From the NCBI RefSeq assembly GCF_002554795.1, contig NZ_PDEQ01000007.1, positions 124,001-188,000 on the forward strand: a stretch of 64,000 nt of DNA. Direction: 5' to 3'. Origin of the DNA: Longibacter salinarum (GTDB taxonomy: Bacteria > Bacteroidota > Rhodothermia > Rhodothermales > Salinibacteraceae). Both the position numbers and the translations under genes were made by a program. Below the pieces are notes generated by a model. It saw only the letters and a program-made list of their open reading frames with translations, did not search any database and was not told the origin of the DNA. Positions within the stretch are counted from its first letter, which is position 1; each line of letters starts with the position of its first letter. This document shows positions 12,110-58,432 of the stretch, one piece after another.

Positions 12110-12323
12110 ATCGGAGATCACACCCACGACAGCTTCCGGCGCCAGATCCCCGTCCTTTAGAAGTTCGGCGTCCCGGAAGGCGAAGAGAGCGAGTGCCCGA
12201 ACGAATCGCTGTCTGAGCGAAGCGAGTTTCGATTCGTTCAGCGAGCAGAACGTAGCCTCCAGCCGAAGTTCTAACCGACGGGCGACTTTTTCCGTCCTGT
12301 TTTTGGTCGTTCAAAAACAGGAC
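12110..12323 (-). repeat. structured repeat family, copy 3 (short, inverted)
   Basis: Read on the minus strand this matches the 5' half of the long structured repeats at 55.87-57.01 kb. It begins with a perfect 12-bp hairpin, GTCCTGTTTTTG/CAAAAACAGGAC (12294-12323), followed by AAAAAGTCGCC. A second perfect stem, GAACGAATCG/CGATTCGTTC (12230-12239 with 12199-12208), closes a loop containing AAACTCGC and CTCAGACAG, also seen in copies 1 and 2. The downstream hairpin of the long copies is missing. No protein-coding signal. Confidence 0.7.
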
Positions 12324-46272: not shown

Positions 46273-46506
46273 GTGTGCTAGCCCGGCTTGATCTCACTGT
46301 CCAAGGACGTTATGTTGCGGACTGAATTGCTATTTTGCCAACGCAACTCCGCGGTGCTCCGACTCCCACAAACTCGATAGAGCACGCAGGACGATCCAGT
46401 CATCGGTTCGATGGTCTATTTCTTGCGTAGATAGTTATTGGTTTGTAGGCCGACTAGCTTTCAACGCGATCGCGCCGTTCATCAGTCAAGATTCCCGCAG
46501 ACTCAA

Positions 46507-49500
46507 ATGAGACAATCAGCTACAAATATACCAATCAAGGTCCGGAGCTCTGTCTTCGGAGGCGTTCCATCCATGGGGCCCCTCGCACTGGTCGTACTTC
46601 TCGGTGTCCTGTTTGCGCTTGGTGGCCAGACCACCCAGGCACAGGCGACATTTGAAAGCGATGCCCAGGCATCCTCATGTGATGGGACATGGACGGATGT
46701 TCAGTGTTGGGATGTGACATCCGGCTCTGATAATGGAGATGGGTATCCGAGCGCTGCAAATGAGGATGTCACCATTTTAGAGGGGGATGTGATTCAGGTT
46801 ACAACTTCGGGCCTGGATGTCGGTGCCATAACGATCAACAATACCGACGGTGATGCCACCAACGATGGAATTGTTTTTATAAATGGAGGGTCAGGTTCAA
46901 GCTTTACGGTTAATGGATCTGTATCAAATAGCGGTAGCTTCACACTTGATCTCTCACCTGTTGGGTCTGGTAATGTTACGATAACCGGTGGGTTAACAAA
47001 CTCGGCTGGTGCAGAAACTACAGTGGGACGTCGCACACTCAGTGTGGGTTTTAGTCTGACAAATTCCGGAACGGTAACGATTGGTGAAAATGGCGTATTA
47101 GAGGTTGGCGGTAATTTCTCCAATACCGGAACTTTCACCGCCACTAATTCCGGGAACGGTTCAACCGTTACTTTCAATGGCGATTCTGATTTGATCACGC
47201 AGTCGTTAAGCGGGTCCTTCTCTGGGGGTAATAGTTTTTCAAATCTCACAGTGGCAGGGAGTGCTGCTGTAAACCCAGATGGAGCCCTTTCTGGATCGAC
47301 TCCAGTGGAGGTACAGGGAGACCTGACGGTTGAGTCTGGTGGCCAATACGGAACGCCTGGTGGAGAAGACTCAGAGATGAAGTACGGGGGGTTTGACTTT
47401 TCAATTATTGGTACGGCGGGCTTTGACACGAACAAGCTAACCTTCAATAACGGGGGGTCTACGTCATCCAAACCTTTACTGGCCAGTGGAGAGGTGTTCA
47501 GTGAGGTTCAGATTACTGGTAACACCTACGTTCGCATTAGTACTCTTTTCGAGGTGAATGGCTTCCTTTCGATCGAAAGCGAAGAACTGAATGTGCAGTC
47601 TGGGGGATCGCTGATCATCAACGATGACTTTAGTGTTGGTGTTAGTGCTACGTATTCGCCGTCTACATCAAGTTCAACAATATTCACGGGACAGACAAAT
47701 ACTGGGAGTGGAGGAACGTACGATCCGTCTGAGTCAACATGCACGTCAAATGGCGGCGAGTCGACTTCAGACGGTGACTGCGAGCAAGATGTCCGTGCGC
47801 TCGGTGCCTTAGATTTGGGTCCTGTAGAAGTTGATGATCAGGACACACGCGTCGTCATCGCAACCGACGAAGGAAACACCAATATACCCAACGTGACAAG
47901 CCTGGATATTGACCCAGGCAGTGATGATAGTAATGTCCAGTTCGTCCTGAACAACACCGACATTATTATTACGGGGGATGTGGTGAATAACGGCATTTTT
48001 CTCCCCGGTGGGAAACGCGTCTTCTTTAAGGGCACCTCCCAGTCGATCACCTCGACGGAGCCACTCGAATTCTTTGATGTGACGGTTGAGAGTACGGGAT
48101 CATCAGATATTGATGTCTCAATTAATCCGGGTGCGGACATTACCGTCGAAAACCAGCTAGATATCGTTCAAGGTGGTCTAGGGTTCGCTGGTACAGTAAG
48201 CGATGACGCTTCCGTGACGCTCCTGAATCAGCTCAAAATGTCTGGTGGAATCCTAGATACCGAGCGTGGATCAGTGACGCTTGTGTCGAAGGGTGCCGAG
48301 ACAGGCGTTGATGATGCTGAAGCATTCGTGACGTATATAGATGACGACTTGAGCGGAGCAGGTGATGGGAATCTGGATGGTGAAATTCGAGGTGACATTG
48401 TCAAGCAGCGTGAACTGACGGGTCCTTCCAGCTGGTATTTTATCGGAAGTCCAGCTAGTACGGGCACAAACGACACGTTCGAAGCATTTTTGGAGCTCGG
48501 TACCGGTACGAATGACCTCTGGACTCAGGGTTTTGTCGGCTCCGATGGTGAAAATGCTCCCGCTTCTGCGTCGAATGTTCGCATCATGGACGAGTCGCAG
48601 CCAGGCATTGATGATAACGGTTACGTTTCTATCGGTGCAATTTCGGATGCGACCGTCTCCGGACGCGGATACCTTGTGTACGTATACGGCGATGACAATT
48701 TTGACGGCTCCGTAACGGCCGGGGAGACGTTCCCGAAGCTCTTAGACTCTGACCTTGAGCCATACAACGGCAAATCATTTGATTACACCGCTGATGGCCC
48801 GGGGATTTCCGTTACGGACAATGGCGATGGAGCTCAAGCTGGAAACGATCAGGTGGATATCGATGAGGGATGGAATCTTCTCAGCAATCCATATCTCGCG
48901 ACGATATCCTGGGATGCACTGACGAAAACCAACCTTGACGATGCAGTCTATGTTTGGGATCCAATTAACCGGCAATTCCTTACGTACTCGGGAGGGTCGG
49001 GGGATCTTACAAACGGTTACATCGCGCCTCAGCAGTCTTTTTTGGTGAAGGCAACGGATAATACGAGTCTTCCAGCGACGTTCAATCTTGCGATCGACGA
49101 TATCACGACGGCTCAAGCAAATACATCCGACTTCTTTCAAAAGTCTGAAACCTTCGAGCCACCGGTGATCAAAATTGCAGGAGAGATGGCAGGCCAAGAA
49201 CGATCAGCCTATCTCACCCTCCTTGACGGAGGAACGATCCAAAAAGACCGGTATGACGCGTATGAACTAGGCGCTCCGGTTAGCGGATCGCGCGGAGCAT
49301 TCTCTATCTTTACGACGCTGGATAATGGTACAGGACTGAGTATCAACGCCTTGCCGTCCGAGATCACGAAAGAGACTTCAATTCCACTTGAGACCGTTGC
49401 ACGCGGATGTGTGGGAGGACTTCCTTTCAGCGGCACCGTTACCCTCACGTGGCCAGAGATTAAAAACCTTCCGGACAAGGTTGGTCTCACGCTTCGCGAT

Positions 49501-50277
49501 ACCGAGACGGGTGATGTGATTGATCTACGGTCTCAAAATGATTACCAGTTCCAGCTTACGGCTAACACGACGTGCTCGAATGCTGTTGCTAAGTCATCTT
49601 CGGATCTTCAGGCTGCTCCAACGCCTCAGATCATGACGGCCTCGGCCTCTAAGTCTACTCCCGGGACTCGGTTCGAGTTGGTGATCTCGCCCAACGGAGT
49701 GCTACCTGTTGAGATCGGCTCCTTCACGGGCTCGCTCGATGGTGAATCTGCTGCTATTATGGAGTGGACGACGCTGAGCGAGACGAGCAACAGCGGGTTC
49801 TACGTCGAGCAGAAGGTCGACGGCAGCTACCAGACGGTCTCCTCGCTGATTGAAGGCGCGGGCACCACGACGGAGCAGCAGTCCTACCGCTTCCGCGTGG
49901 AGGACCTCGAGGAAGGCACGACGCACACGTTCCGCCTCCGCCAGGTGGATGTGGACGGCGCGACGTCCTACTCGGAGACAGTCGACGTGAAGGTCGGCAT
50001 CCAGGATGCGTACAAGCTAGAAGCTTACCCGAATCCGGTCGCCAACGGTCAGCAGCCGACGGTGCGCTTCGCAGTCGATAAGAGCCAGCCCGTTACGATC
50101 GAGCTGTACAACACGCTCGGTCAGCGCGTGCGGACGCTCTACAACGACACGCCGCGGGTCACGGGCGAATTCCAGAAGGTGCAGGTGGACGTGAACAGCC
50201 TCGCAAGTGGCGTCTACTTCATCCGGATGCGCGGCGAAAGCTTCGCGACGACGAAGAAGCTAGTCGTGGTTCGCTAA
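46507..50277 (+). CDS. large T9SS-secreted surface protein
   Basis: A 1256-residue protein. The long N-terminal leader ends in a signal peptide (ALVVLLGVLFALGGQTTQAQA). Residues about 55-560 are repetitive Gly/Ser/Thr/Asn-rich strands (such as NSGTVTIGENGVLEVGGNFSNTGT), consistent with a parallel beta-helix. A WNLLSNPY module follows near residue 805. The C-terminal ~190 residues contain a fibronectin-like segment (EWTTLSETSNSGFYVEQK) and a type A sorting domain (YPNPVANGQQPTVRF, SGVYFIRMRG, KLVVVR). The body is less GC-rich than the tail. It would be exported by Sec and then the type IX system; function of the body is unknown. Confidence 0.88.
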   Translation: MRQSATNIPIKVRSSVFGGVPSMGPLALVVLLGVLFALGGQTTQAQATFESDAQASSCDGTWTDVQCWDVTSGSDNGDGYPSAANEDVTILEGDVIQVTTSGLDVGAITINNTDGDATNDGIVFINGGSGSSFTVNGSVSNSGSFTLDLSPVGSGNVTITGGLTNSAGAETTVGRRTLSVGFSLTNSGTVTIGENGVLEVGGNFSNTGTFTATNSGNGSTVTFNGDSDLITQSLSGSFSGGNSFSNLTVAGSAAVNPDGALSGSTPVEVQGDLTVESGGQYGTPGGEDSEMKYGGFDFSIIGTAGFDTNKLTFNNGGSTSSKPLLASGEVFSEVQITGNTYVRISTLFEVNGFLSIESEELNVQSGGSLIINDDFSVGVSATYSPSTSSSTIFTGQTNTGSGGTYDPSESTCTSNGGESTSDGDCEQDVRALGALDLGPVEVDDQDTRVVIATDEGNTNIPNVTSLDIDPGSDDSNVQFVLNNTDIIITGDVVNNGIFLPGGKRVFFKGTSQSITSTEPLEFFDVTVESTGSSDIDVSINPGADITVENQLDIVQGGLGFAGTVSDDASVTLLNQLKMSGGILDTERGSVTLVSKGAETGVDDAEAFVTYIDDDLSGAGDGNLDGEIRGDIVKQRELTGPSSWYFIGSPASTGTNDTFEAFLELGTGTNDLWTQGFVGSDGENAPASASNVRIMDESQPGIDDNGYVSIGAISDATVSGRGYLVYVYGDDNFDGSVTAGETFPKLLDSDLEPYNGKSFDYTADGPGISVTDNGDGAQAGNDQVDIDEGWNLLSNPYLATISWDALTKTNLDDAVYVWDPINRQFLTYSGGSGDLTNGYIAPQQSFLVKATDNTSLPATFNLAIDDITTAQANTSDFFQKSETFEPPVIKIAGEMAGQERSAYLTLLDGGTIQKDRYDAYELGAPVSGSRGAFSIFTTLDNGTGLSINALPSEITKETSIPLETVARGCVGGLPFSGTVTLTWPEIKNLPDKVGLTLRDTETGDVIDLRSQNDYQFQLTANTTCSNAVAKSSSDLQAAPTPQIMTASASKSTPGTRFELVISPNGVLPVEIGSFTGSLDGESAAIMEWTTLSETSNSGFYVEQKVDGSYQTVSSLIEGAGTTTEQQSYRFRVEDLEEGTTHTFRLRQVDVDGATSYSETVDVKVGIQDAYKLEAYPNPVANGQQPTVRFAVDKSQPVTIELYNTLGQRVRTLYNDTPRVTGEFQKVQVDVNSLASGVYFIRMRGESFATTKKLVVVR

Positions 50278-50305
50278 ACATCAAGTATAGTCTCAATTCA
50301 TAACA

Positions 50306-50341
50306 AAGGGGTCGCTTCCTTCGGGGGAGCGACCCTTTTAT
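50306..50341 (+). terminator. rho-independent terminator
   Basis: GGGTCGCT (50308-50315) pairs with AGCGACCC (50328-50335), followed by TTTTA. It lies 30 bases after the first T9SS protein gene. Confidence 0.85.
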
Positions 50342-50640
50342 GCTGCGTGACGGTCTGTTGTAGTCTCATACATTTATAGTGTCGAGATGAACTGAAACTT
50401 TGTTTTTTCTGTTGAGGATAGTAAATTCTTGTTGTGTTCAGGAGTCGGATTGTGTAAATGAAACCGCGATATGATGAACGGATGCTGTATAGTGTCCGCC
50501 TCCGTGATGAAAAAGGTGGATCTGGGAGGTTGATGATGTTGGTTTAAAGAAATGTTATTTACGTGGTCCATTGCATAATGTACTCCGACCTCGGCGCACC
50601 AAATCCTCGAATTGCGTACCGCTAACAACGCAAAGATGAT
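50342..50640. other. AT-rich spacer before the second T9SS gene
   Basis: About 300 bases, clearly more AT-rich than the surroundings, presumably carrying the promoter of the next gene. A minus-strand open frame crosses it but has no recognisable features. Nothing else seen. Confidence 0.4.
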
Positions 50641-53508
50641 ATGAGCTCGATTGTGACGACTGTATTTTCGCGCACCTTATCAGTTTTTTTTGTTGTCCTT
50701 TTATCTGTTTTTGGGATGGGGGGAGGACTGCTGTTTGCTCAGTCTACGTATAACGTCGATTCTAGTGGAGATGAGGCAGATGCTTCCGTAGGGGATGGCG
50801 TATGTGCTAGTACGTTAGGCACCTGTACTTTCAGGGCGGCACTTCAAGAGGCGAACAGTGACCCCGTTCAAGATATTATAGATTTCTCATCGATTCCTAC
50901 AGGTGCCGGTGGGGTGGCAAGAATTAATGTCTCAACGGAGTTGGACATAAATAATCCGGTCCAAATTTTGGGGCGTTCCGCCCCGGGATACGCGACGAAT
51001 CAGCAACCCGTCATTGTCTTGGACGGGGGAGGCACGCCATCGGGGACAGACGGATTAGAGATAGGCTCAGATGATGTTGTGATAGAAGCGCTATCTCTCG
51101 TTGATTTTGCAGATGATGGTATCGACGTTCGAGCCGGAACCAACGTGCGCATATCATACAGTCATATTGGACTTGAGCCAGATGGGGTCACTGTCTCAGG
51201 GAATGCGAATAATGGTATCGAGGTTCAGGGCAACGGCGTCGTAATTGGAGCGACTGATGCTCACCCAAATGGAGGAAACGTCATTTCAGGGAATAGCGGT
51301 AACGGGGTATTTCTCAATGGACCTGACCCACGCGTTCGCCTTGGTGGCAATATCATCGGGTTGGATGCATCTGCCTCCCAAGACCGTGGTAACTCTGCTT
51401 TTGGGATTTTGATACCGTCTGGTACTGGTTCTGAGATTGGGTATACTAGCAGCAGTGGGGTTACGTACGGCAACGTTATAAGTGGAAACGGAACAACGGG
51501 AATCGCTCTTGAGAGCACCGGTCACATGGTGGTTGGCAACGTGATCGGCCTGGATGGTTCTGAGTCGGTGGCAATCCCCAATCGAATAGGTGTATTTTTA
51601 GAGGTCGGGTCCAATGTTGTGGGGGGCGCTAGCCGAGGTGAAAAGAGCAATATCATTGCAGGAAACGACGAAGAAGGTATACGTATAGGACGCGCGAACC
51701 AATCCACTTCTAACGGGAACCATGTTCGCAATAACTATATCGGCGTCTCTTCTACGTCTGTCTCTTTCCCAAACTCGACTGGGATCCAAGTTGAGTTCGG
51801 ATCTGATAATGTGATTGACAGTAATGTAATCGGCGGAAATAGTATTGGGGTGACGATCGATAATGACAGTGCAAGAAATCAAGTTTTCCGTAACTTGATT
51901 GGGGCTTCGGCTTCAGGCAACAACATTGGTAATTCTTCCGGTGGTATCCGGGTAGCTTCGTCGCCTGCGGATTTGGCCGATGCAAACCGAGTCGGTGGCT
52001 CTCTCCTAGCCGACGCCAACATTATTGGCTTCAACAGCAGTTACGGCATTGCTATCGAAGGTGAGCGTAACGTCATTGCGGCGAACTATGTGGGGACGGA
52101 CGATGCCGCTAATGACCTGTCAAACGACGGCCCCGGTATTCGAATTACCGCCTCGAACGTCATCGTTGGTGAGGCAGCCGGCGGGGGGAGCGTCGTCGGT
52201 TTCAACGCTGGTGATGGCATTCTTGTCCAGAATGCGAGTAGCGTGAGCGTGGCAGCGAATTACGTCGGACAGACGCTCGCCGGCGATAACGTCGGAAATG
52301 GAGGCAACGGCGTAGGCATTGTTGCAACGAGTGGGAATACGGCGTCCGGTAACACCGTCGGTTATGCCTATGGAGGCACGGTTCCGGGAGACCCGTCGCC
52401 CTCCAGCGGGGCCGGGAATGTGGTAGCGAATAACAATGGTGCCGGTGTCGCCGTGCGAGGCGCAGGTACCGTGGAGGGAAATGCGATGCGAGGCAATAGC
52501 ATCTTCGCGAACGCTGCCGTTGGTATCGACCTCGGTAATGATGGGCAGACCGCCAACGACGCTCAGGATAGCGACACCGGGCCGAACCAGCTTCAGAACT
52601 TTCCGGAGCTGAGCGCTGCTGAGACGGAGCTCACGCAATCCGGGGATATTCAGGTTCGGTATCAGGTCGACTGCGATCCAGCGAATTGCGACTTCGGTAC
52701 GAATGGTCTGGCGATCGACCTGTATCGAACGTCCGGCGGCGGCGCGACGCAGGGACGTACGTTCCTCGGGTCGACGTTCTATGCCGAGGCAGATGCCGGC
52801 ACGTTCGTAACGGCGACGATTACCCCGCCAAGTTCGGTGACGGTCGAAGAAACGGACGAGGTCGTTGCTCTCGCCACGGACGCTTCCGGTAACACGAGTG
52901 AGTTCACATCGACGCCAGACGTTCTTCCGGTCGAACTGGCCTTTTTCAACGGTACCCGGGAAGGTGTAGACACCGTCCTCCTCGAATGGACGACGCTGAG
53001 CGAAAGCAACAACAGCGGGTTCTACGTCGAGCAGAAGGTCGACGGCAGCTACCAGACGGTCTCCTCGCTCGTCGCATCGCAGGCGCCAAACGGCACCACG
53101 ACGGAGCAGCAGTCCTACCGCTTCCGCGTGGAGGACCTCGAGGAAGGCACGACGCACACGTTCCGCCTCCGCCAGGTGGATGTGGACGGGAAGACATCCT
53201 ACTCGGAGACGGTCGATGTGAAGGTCGGCATCCAGGATGCGTACAAGCTGGAAGCCTACCCGAACCCGGTCGCCAATGGTCAGCAGCCGACGGTGCGCTT
53301 CGCGGTTGATAAGAGCCAGCCCGTTACGATCGAGCTGTACAACACGCTCGGTCAGCGCGTACGGACGCTCTACAACGACACGCCGCGGGTCACGGGCGAA
53401 TTCCAGAAGGTGCAGGTGGACGTGAACAGCCTCGCAAGCGGCGTCTACTTCATCCGGATGCGCGGCGAAAGCTTCGCGACGACGAAGAAGCTAGTCGTGG
53501 TTCGCTAA
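50641..53508 (+). CDS. T9SS-secreted parallel beta-helix protein with CSLREA-like start
   Basis: A 955-residue protein. The signal peptide ends at GLLFAQ (about residue 35). VDSSGDEADASVGDGVCAS and GTCTFRAALQEAN form a CSLREA-like motif typical of secreted beta-helix proteins. Residues about 100-680 are right-handed beta-helix coils with repeated NVISGN, GNVIGLD and NYIGV motifs. Then come a VRYQVDCDPANC module, a fibronectin-like segment and the T9SS type A sorting domain ending KKLVVVR. The last ~175 codons are nearly identical at the DNA level to those of the preceding gene. A polysaccharide-binding or adhesin role is plausible but unproven. Confidence 0.9.
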   Translation: MSSIVTTVFSRTLSVFFVVLLSVFGMGGGLLFAQSTYNVDSSGDEADASVGDGVCASTLGTCTFRAALQEANSDPVQDIIDFSSIPTGAGGVARINVSTELDINNPVQILGRSAPGYATNQQPVIVLDGGGTPSGTDGLEIGSDDVVIEALSLVDFADDGIDVRAGTNVRISYSHIGLEPDGVTVSGNANNGIEVQGNGVVIGATDAHPNGGNVISGNSGNGVFLNGPDPRVRLGGNIIGLDASASQDRGNSAFGILIPSGTGSEIGYTSSSGVTYGNVISGNGTTGIALESTGHMVVGNVIGLDGSESVAIPNRIGVFLEVGSNVVGGASRGEKSNIIAGNDEEGIRIGRANQSTSNGNHVRNNYIGVSSTSVSFPNSTGIQVEFGSDNVIDSNVIGGNSIGVTIDNDSARNQVFRNLIGASASGNNIGNSSGGIRVASSPADLADANRVGGSLLADANIIGFNSSYGIAIEGERNVIAANYVGTDDAANDLSNDGPGIRITASNVIVGEAAGGGSVVGFNAGDGILVQNASSVSVAANYVGQTLAGDNVGNGGNGVGIVATSGNTASGNTVGYAYGGTVPGDPSPSSGAGNVVANNNGAGVAVRGAGTVEGNAMRGNSIFANAAVGIDLGNDGQTANDAQDSDTGPNQLQNFPELSAAETELTQSGDIQVRYQVDCDPANCDFGTNGLAIDLYRTSGGGATQGRTFLGSTFYAEADAGTFVTATITPPSSVTVEETDEVVALATDASGNTSEFTSTPDVLPVELAFFNGTREGVDTVLLEWTTLSESNNSGFYVEQKVDGSYQTVSSLVASQAPNGTTTEQQSYRFRVEDLEEGTTHTFRLRQVDVDGKTSYSETVDVKVGIQDAYKLEAYPNPVANGQQPTVRFAVDKSQPVTIELYNTLGQRVRTLYNDTPRVTGEFQKVQVDVNSLASGVYFIRMRGESFATTKKLVVVR

Positions 53509-55594: not shown

Positions 55595-55751
55595 TTATCC
55601 ACATCGGGTAGACCGCCCTTTACGGAAAAGAGTAATAACGGAAATAGCCTGTTGCGACCCTTTTCGTCATCACGGTACAGAATCCCATGCCTTATATCTG
55701 TTATTGGCCCTGTTTGTGGGTGGTGATCGCTCGTCGGAAAAGTTATCCACA
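55595..55751 (+). promoter_or_regulatory. two perfect DnaA boxes
   Basis: TTATCCACA occurs exactly at 55595-55603 and 55743-55751, both on the plus strand, 148 bases apart in a non-coding region. GGCTATCCATT at about 55542 is a weaker relative. This could be a DnaA-titration or regulatory cluster, or part of an origin, though dnaA itself is not in the window. Confidence 0.5.
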
Positions 55752-55869
55752 CTCCGTGAACAGTGAGGGATGGGGTTTGGAGTGCGGGGGATGTGGGAAA
55801 GGGGGAGTGGGAGAATGGGGGCTCCATTTTTCGAACTTAGCGCCTTGGGCCGATCGTTCTGCTCCTGGT

Positions 55870-56389
55870 GTCTCATTTTTTGGATCGCCAAAAAACGAGA
55901 CGCAAAAATCGCCACAGGCACTACCTCGCTTCGCTCGGGGCGGCTCCCCGGCGGTCCGCGCTTCTTCTAGCGCTACGCCGTCGCCACTGAACGAACCCAA
56001 ACTCGCGAGACCAGCTCGCTCAGACAGGGGTTCGTTCTTGTCGTGGCTCCGCCTTCGCGCTCAAGACGACGAACCGCGCAAGGCCGGGAGACAGAACTCT
56101 CGCTTCAGCAATCTTGTTTGCGTCGTTTCGGCCCTTGCGAAGATCGGCGCCCGGAGGGACCGGGAAGCGGAGCGACCCATTAGCTGGATCAGTCGTAGGG
56201 TAGCGAAATCGGTTGGCGGGGAAATTCTTCTTGTTTGAGCCCCTGAAGCGCTGAGGTCTATAATTAGTGAACTGCTTTTAGAAGGGGCGAGTTTGAAGAA
56301 TTTCAGCGAAGCGGAGCGGGCACTCACCCGATCTTCGGACAGGCCTTGACTTTTTTCTCGCCGGTTTTTTGGTCAAGCAAAAAACCGGC
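55870..56389 (+). repeat. structured repeat family, copy 1
   Basis: About 520 bases of non-coding DNA. It is bounded by hairpins at 55870-55901 (GTCTCATTTTTTGG against CCAAAAAACGAGAC) and 56360-56389 (GCCGGTTTTTTG against CAAAAAACCGGC). Internal stems: CGGGG/CCCCG near 55939, GCGCT/AGCGC near 55965, GAACGAACCC (55989-55998) with GGGTTCGTTC (56028-56037), and CGCAAGG (56077-56083) with CCTTGCG (56133-56139). It is tandem with copy 2. The frames crossing it give low-complexity peptides and are probably not genes. Confidence 0.8.
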
Positions 56390-56423
56390 ACCACCGGATC
56401 GGAGAAGGATTCCACTCTTGATT

Positions 56424-57009
56424 GTCTCATTTTTTGGATCGCCAAAAAACGAGACACAAAAATCACCACAGGCACTACCTCGCTTCTCTCGGGTCGGCGA
56501 CCCGTCTGTCTGCGCTTCGTCTAGCGCTCCCTCTCCGCCACTCAACGAATCTAAAGGGCCCGTAGGGTCATCCTGTGGACTCGCCCGCACGGCGGGCTCA
56601 GACAGAGATTCGTTCGGGTCGTGGCTTCGTCTCCGCGCACCACGGGCACTAACTCGCGATGCTCATGTCGCTCGAGACGACGAACCGCGCAAGGCCGGGA
56701 GCACAGCGACCTTCGTCTGGGCTCTGGATGCTACGAGCGCAGGGCGTTTCGGCCCTTGCGAAGATCGGCGCTCGGAGGATTTAGAAAGCGGAGCGTCCCA
56801 TCATTTCCATCGATTGCAGATCAGCACGTCGCTTCGGCGGGGAAATTCTCTTTGTTTGAGGCCTCGTAGCACTTCATCATGCGTCTAGCAGAATATTAGT
56901 AGAGAGGCCGAGTTCAGAGAATTTCAGCGGAGTGATCCGGATCCTCAGCCGATCTTCGGACAGGCCTTGACTTTTTTCCACCGGTTTTTTGGTCAAGCAA
57001 AAAACCGGT
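56424..57009 (+). repeat. structured repeat family, copy 2
   Basis: About 586 bases, colinear with copy 1 and starting 34 bases after its end. The first hairpin (56424-56455) is identical; the last (56980-57009) has ACCGGTTTTTTG against CAAAAAACCGGT. The internal stem is AACGAATCT (56544-56552) with AGATTCGTT (56606-56614). Relative to copy 1 the loop of that stem is enlarged and carries its own CGCCCGC/GCGGGC hairpin. Sequence between stems has diverged, while the stems are kept. Confidence 0.8.
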
Positions 57010-57078
57010 ATCACCGGCGGGGGACGGATGCCGGTCCTCTGCCCCACTTCAAGGGCTGAACACAGAGCGACACCAGCA

Positions 57079-58398: not shown

Positions 58399-58432
58399 GC
58401 GGTAAGGGCGCATTGCAATGCGCCCTTACCGC
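58399..58432. repeat. 34-bp perfect palindrome
   Basis: GCGGTAAGGGCGCATTG is followed directly by its exact complement with no loop. A further half-site, GCGCCCTTACGG, lies about 20 bases downstream. It is in the 217-base divergent space between the MFS and DUF2461 genes, so it may be a regulator site or a REP-like repeat. Confidence 0.75.

Follow-up and report, generated by a model that had tools for sequence, protein, structure and literature searches.

Short, structured, multicopy intergenic repeats, which occur singly or as inverted or tandem pairs, are known from the REP and BIME sequences and their RAYT (TnpA_REP) transposases, including subclass 2.6 of the Bacteroidetes, whose TnpA_REP are flanked by “atypical secondary structures” (PMC6006769). 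The H-type pseudoknots with a major-groove triplex (telomerase RNA, the SAM-V and guanidine-III riboswitches, and preQ1-II) run from stem 1 through a U-rich loop 1 to stem 2, with the loop lying in the deep groove. The GOLLD, ROOL, and HEARO RNAs are long, ornate, intergenic, and sometimes repeated. The ENE and dENE triplexes of transposon and long non-coding RNAs are found near the RNA 3' end, in selfish elements as well, and clamp a poly(A) tail.

The locus considered here lies in Longibacter salinarum, in a window of 64,000 nucleotides (the whole stretch of DNA analysed), which is part of a 4.4-Mb genome. It holds two tandem units of approximately 70% identity, W1 (55869-56400, plus strand) and W2 (56423-57020, plus strand), which are made up of copies of a smaller element, here denominated E. 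This element is best read as a non-coding, non-autonomous interspersed repeat of the Bacteroidota that may work as folded nucleic acid, most likely RNA, a reading to which a probability of roughly one half is given.

The tandem units and the element E

Two tandem non-coding units with the same order of hairpins, as described in an earlier sequence-only reading, are indeed present in the sequence, but the treatment of each unit of 520-590 nt as a single RNA does not hold, given that W1 and W2 are each two inverted copies of E, divergent, with their tails pointing outward. The covariance model R1, which derives from the 3' halves of the units and from their relatives, matches the plus strand of W1 and W2 at 162-165 bits. 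Its matches to the 5' halves are weaker and on the minus strand (55967-56039 at 24.8 bits, and up to 60 bits elsewhere in the genome), and each unit is therefore a pair of back-to-back E copies. W1 combines an X-type E on the minus strand (tail 55870-55901) with a Y-type E on the plus strand (tail 56345-56389), an arrangement repeated in W2, which has additional modules in the P2 loop and in the middle.

The element is roughly 100-260 nt long, and is formed, in order, by a helix, H1 (foot GGCCT..GCC), the motif CTTGAY (K5), a pyrimidine tract (L1), and a hairpin, H2, with the loop RTCAAG (K3); the conserved foot reads GGCCT..GCC-TTGA. Often there is also an inner stem, whose TGTYTGAG/CGAGTT internal loop is conserved. 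The interior of H1 is replaceable and can be short, as at loci L152 and L163, so that the H1 foot and the tail represent the core of E.

In the Y-type E of W1 (plus strand throughout), the two arms of the H1 outer helix lie at 56130-56147 (5') and 56328-56345 (3'), and the inner stem GAAATTCTTC/GAAGAATTTC, with the internal loop TTGTTTGAG/CGAGTTT, at 56221-56304. These are followed by K5 (CTTGAC, 56345-56350), which pairs with the hairpin loop, by L1 (TTTTTT, 56351-56356), a third strand whose predicted place is the H2 major groove, and by H2 itself (56360-56389), with K3 (GTCAAG) in the loop at 56372-56377 and the purine strand at 56379-56384. The Y-type E of W2, on the same strand, has its H1 arms at 56751-56768 and 56948-56966, K5 (CTTGAC) at 56966-56971, the third strand L1 (TTTTTT) at 56972-56977, and H2 at 56980-57009, with K3 at 56992-56997. 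In the X-type E of W1, on the minus strand, the tail hairpin (55870-55901) reads GTCTC A TTTTTTGG..CCAAAAAA C GAGAC, and looks degenerate because its loop pairs weakly with the upstream partner; the X-type tails of both W1 and W2 keep the T/A stem, with poor K5/K3 pairing. The stem previously denominated P2 (55989-56037) is, on the minus strand, the inner stem of this X-type E, with the internal loop TGTYTGAGC..GCGAGTTT, and lies within the R1 minus-strand match at 55967-56039.

A search of the DNA of the whole genome returned 26 matches, which gave 14 aligned units (including W1 and W2) on three contigs, either single or two to three in tandem. Next to the same MFS gene, the sister species (G001) has one unit and the window genome two, and the tandem pair thus looks like a copy-number state. 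The lengths of the indels between the units are not divisible by three, and the frames of the stops vary; the units are therefore no shared coding sequence, and this DNA is not translated. A third copy was located at approximately 12157-12323 on the plus strand; this lone, unpaired E is matched by R1 at 61.9 bits, and has an H1 (TTAGAAGTTCGGC/GCCGAAGTTCTAA), an inner stem, and the tail GCGAC-TTTTT-..GTTTTTG-GTCGT-TCAAAAAC.

Other features of the window may be recorded here. Positions 12385-37000 hold a surface-glycan region, with the capsule assembly protein Wzi, several glycosyltransferases, a sulfotransferase, and a DegT aminotransferase, while 46438-53508 encode two large proteins, each bearing a Por secretion C-terminal sorting domain; one of the two proteins also has a NosD repeat region. 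Two exact TTATCCACA sites, which are DnaA-box-like, lie just upstream of W1 (55595-55603 and 55743-55751), and the flank bearing the second of these aligns to the sister species (L032); the window has five TTWTNCACA sites, against 1.8 expected. A perfect, loopless inverted repeat of 17 nt (GCGGTAAGGGCGCATTG/CAATGCGCCCTTACCGC) is found at 58399-58432.

Paired strands and the predicted third strand

The paired changes between the units from which selection for structure had been proposed are all found in the sequence, that is, in P2 (GAACGAACCC/GGGTTCGTTC versus AACGAATCT/AGATTCGTT), in the 3' hairpin (GCCGG/CCGGC versus ACCGG/CCGGT), and in a small stem (CGGGG/CCCCG versus CGGGT/ACCCG). One helix is swapped whole between the units (GGCCCTTGCGAAGATCGG/CCGATCTTCGGACAGGCC versus GGCCCTTGGAGACGTTCGCC/GGCGAAGGTCTCCCTGGCC), and two sequence-specific hairpins each occur twice in the window and in none of 100 shuffles. 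At the 3' hairpin, the earlier description was right about the paired changes, but missed the pseudoknot, formed with the CTTGAC partner and the T-run that lie just upstream.

The proposed selection gains strong support from covariation once many homologues are aligned. In 16 elements of the family, paired cells make up 92.6% of the total, and 15 pairs have changed on both sides. The covariation score of 0.271 compares with 0.122 in shuffles, none of which (0/500) reaches the observed value; shifting the partner by one to three columns destroys the covariation. In 49 distinct tails of fixed layout, drawn from many genera, the proportion of paired cells rises to 98.3% and the score to 0.357, against 0.087 in the shuffles (again 0/500). 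Between K5 and the H2 loop, 99.3% of the cells pair, including pairs that changed on both sides, the 0/500 result referring here to the structure as a whole. The variants observed for K5/K3 are CTTGAC/GTCAAG, CTTGAT/ATCAAG, CTTGAA/TTCAAG, CTTGGC/GCCAAG, and GGTGAC/GTCACC, and H1 varies in sequence yet pairs in 107 distinct helices. In the stems, G.T is commoner than A.C, by 46 to 17, which is what plus-strand RNA would lead one to expect. At the level of sequence comparison, this establishes that H1, K5, L1, and H2 form a fold in which K3 pairs with K5.

The evidence for a third strand comes from L1, which starts directly after K5 and, read 5' to 3', is placed in a register where L1[i] faces R[i+1], R being the strand after K3. 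In this register, the letters of L1 follow, in parallel, the Hoogsteen code for the purine arm of H2 (T over A, C over G), with 337 matches and four mismatches among the pyrimidine-purine cells of 64 distinct elements, at letters fixed by no search pattern, although many elements within a genus are related and the element counts are not independent events. When R is swapped among the 64 elements, the match to the code averages 83.7%, with a maximum of 89.2%, and none of the 2000 swaps reaches the observed level. Examples of facing L1 and R strands are TTTTTCTCTTT over AAAAAGAGAAA, TTTTCCTTT over AAAAGGAAA, TTTCTCTTT over (C)AAGAGAAA, and CTTTC over GAAAG. In the asymmetric cases, L1 is the mirror, rather than a repeat, of the pyrimidine arm, which points to a parallel Hoogsteen strand, given that this requires the mirror form, whereas a competing Watson-Crick arm would not.

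An independent genome search in which both facing letters were left free returned T/A 15 times, C/G eight times, T/G once, and C/A never (Fisher p = 1.2e-5). A search that fixed only a C in L1 recovered five distinct hairpin-bearing tails, including one from a genome new to the set, with G opposite in all five; the other matches (f27 and a few singles) had no such hairpin, and were mostly one repeated, coding-looking sequence. The geometry of the tail is steady in 176 tails, with mostly four to six triples, four to five base pairs below them, and a linker of 1 nt. Taken together, these comparisons strongly support a triplex pseudoknot as the predicted form of the tail of E.

Distribution and genomic context

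The suggestion that this might be a widespread repeat lacking a name is borne out by the distribution of E, with R1 matches in 22 of the 27 genomes of the window's family and in 77 of the 296 sampled genomes of the phylum Bacteroidota. The tail pattern is found in 63 of these 296 genomes, with up to 31 copies per genome, while the reversed pattern has zero matches in all 296. In a scan of named genomes, nearly all of the matches listed (80 of at least 120) are from Bacteroidota, and the two exceptions among them are metagenome-assembled genomes labelled Williamsia and SR1. Most genomes carry E in its single, unpaired form, and the divergent pair is also found in two further genera of the family (loci L161 and L162), making three in all. 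Carriage by phages or plasmids was considered and rejected, given that E has three matches in viral contigs, one partial match in plasmids, and none in the phages searched, while a plasmid search for W1 and W2 returned none.

No Rfam 15 family matches the units, or E in other genera, at the gathering threshold, which agrees with the earlier remark that no named RNA class has this layout; the sole Rfam match in the loci searched is a group II intron elsewhere in L217. No description of E was found in the open (as distinct from subscription) literature, searched by motif letters and by topic.

Of the 125 copies examined in AT-rich loci, five are inside a called ORF, and 130 adjacent ORFs yielded no enriched family as a common neighbour (top count three), these gene calls following a simple ORF rule rather than annotation. 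Near-identical copies are dispersed with unrelated flanks, in the manner of MITEs, and in some genomes the sequence upstream of E is unlike between copies. One locus was studied in genus g39, where sister species have different whole gene modules beyond a conserved gene, and identity between two of them begins at the H2 end of an E. The search for a clean empty site with a target duplication, which covered this one locus, found none, presence or absence there spanning whole gene modules.

The hypervariable site of g39, with different gene modules in different species, was observed at L331 and its relatives, and these genomes also have a very common short repeat (query 739-769). At locus L108 (G277), toxin-antitoxin-like, Fic, and ATPase genes are split by near-identical E copies on the same strand, and one ATPase-E module is duplicated. 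Same-strand clusters of this kind suggested integron-like cassettes, a candidate that was rejected on gene content, the genes there being ordinary surface-glycan or toxin-antitoxin genes. A tie to the 23S-IVP four-helix-bundle genes was also rejected, there being no above-chance similarity to W1 or W2 around them.

Possible modes of action and comparison with described systems

The main rival to a folded RNA is a less probable reading in which E acts as single-stranded DNA; a recombinase or HUH nuclease would move it as a miniature hairpin element (REP-, IS200-, or attC-like), and the pseudoknot and triplex would form in DNA during replication or transfer. The dispersal and clustering of the copies, the abrupt boundary between sister species at the H2 end, the tail-to-tail and head-to-head pairs (as in REP/BIME arrays), the intergenic location with no significant bias of orientation, and the atypical structures flanking TnpA_REP subclass 2.6 of the Bacteroidetes (PMC6006769) would all be consistent with this. 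Against it, Y1 transposase genes (PF01797, IS200/RAYT) are absent from the window genome (G000), G012, and G015, all of which carry E, and in 18 of the 19 Y1 loci examined the flanks have no E-like pseudoknot. At the remaining locus (L332:1100-1900, in G140), an ordinary IS200 copy, its transposase broken by a stop, lies inside an E; this is an insertion, because the IS is also present without E elsewhere in that genome (L357), and a tie between E and RAYT/IS200 was rejected. No enzyme partner of E was found among the neighbouring genes or the Y1 transposases. The excess of G.T over A.C in the stems also weighs against DNA, and a linker of 1 nt across four to five pairs would better fit the narrow deep groove of RNA.

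It is improbable that E is a cis-acting element of adjacent genes, which terminates transcription and stabilises the mRNA at its 3' end, even though H1 and the U-tract after it look like an intrinsic terminator and some copies lie directly after a stop codon. The gene upstream of E shares its strand in 64 of 118 copies and lies on the opposite strand in 54, and the flanking orientations (++ 43, -- 28, -+ 26, +- 21) are not significantly biased, which makes a gene-bound terminator role ill-suited. Still less probable is a single large structured RNA of the GOLLD, ROOL, or HEARO sort occupying the whole 520-590-nt unit. The length of the unit, its long stems, and plus-strand folding z-scores of -3.0 and -2.8 would suit such an RNA, but the minus strand folds at least as well (-4.2), the unit resolves into two inverted copies of an element that most genomes carry singly, and Rfam returns no match. 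An origin of the pattern in protein coding, or in simple A/T-rich sequence, can be dismissed almost entirely, because the open frames of up to approximately 180 aa that cross the units have no Pfam match and are not kept between units, the reversed pattern is missing from the 296 genomes, and the covariation already refutes it.

The preferred reading is that of a non-autonomous mobile repeat that would act as folded RNA, a statement that is strong as regards the structure and conditional as regards the function. The fold would act in RNA because G.T exceeds A.C in the stems and the length of the linker suits the deep groove of A-form RNA. If E is transcribed, H1 and the triplex pseudoknot could cap the 3' end against 3'-5' exonucleases, and might also serve as the handle by which a putative enzyme copies or moves the element, both roles being modelled on the pseudoknots and triplexes at the 3' ends of other selfish RNAs. 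By this analogy, the likeliest role of E would be to provide the protected, recognisable 3' end of a selfish, non-autonomous repeat. More doubtful is the specific proposal of a bacterial SINE-like RNA, spread by the putative enzyme, with a triple-helix pseudoknot at its 3' end and a third strand under selection.

Covariation of three strands, recurring in many families within one phylum, would give evidence of unusual directness for selection of a triple helix in living cells, and E supplies many natural variants for testing the rules of triplex formation. The element is carried by many Bacteroidota, including gut genera, and is named by no annotation found; at least one copy lies at a site of hypervariable gene content.

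Structured repeats that are interspersed in genomes are a known kind, as are triplex pseudoknots; no description was found of the two in combination, with a covarying third strand. In comparison with the REP/BIME-RAYT systems, E is much larger, has a covarying pseudoknot and triplex tail, and needs no RAYT gene in the window genome, while the Y1 genes examined are not flanked by E, except for the one IS200 inserted inside a copy. The units W1 and W2 differ from GOLLD, ROOL, and HEARO in being two inverted copies of a smaller element with no Rfam match. In contrast with the ENE and dENE triplexes, the purine strand of E belongs to a hairpin, and the host is a bacterium. With the H-type triplex pseudoknots, finally, E shares the topology, but its predicted triplex forms the 3' terminus of an intergenic repeat in many copies, and its third strand itself covaries, with T changing to C as A-U changes to G-C.
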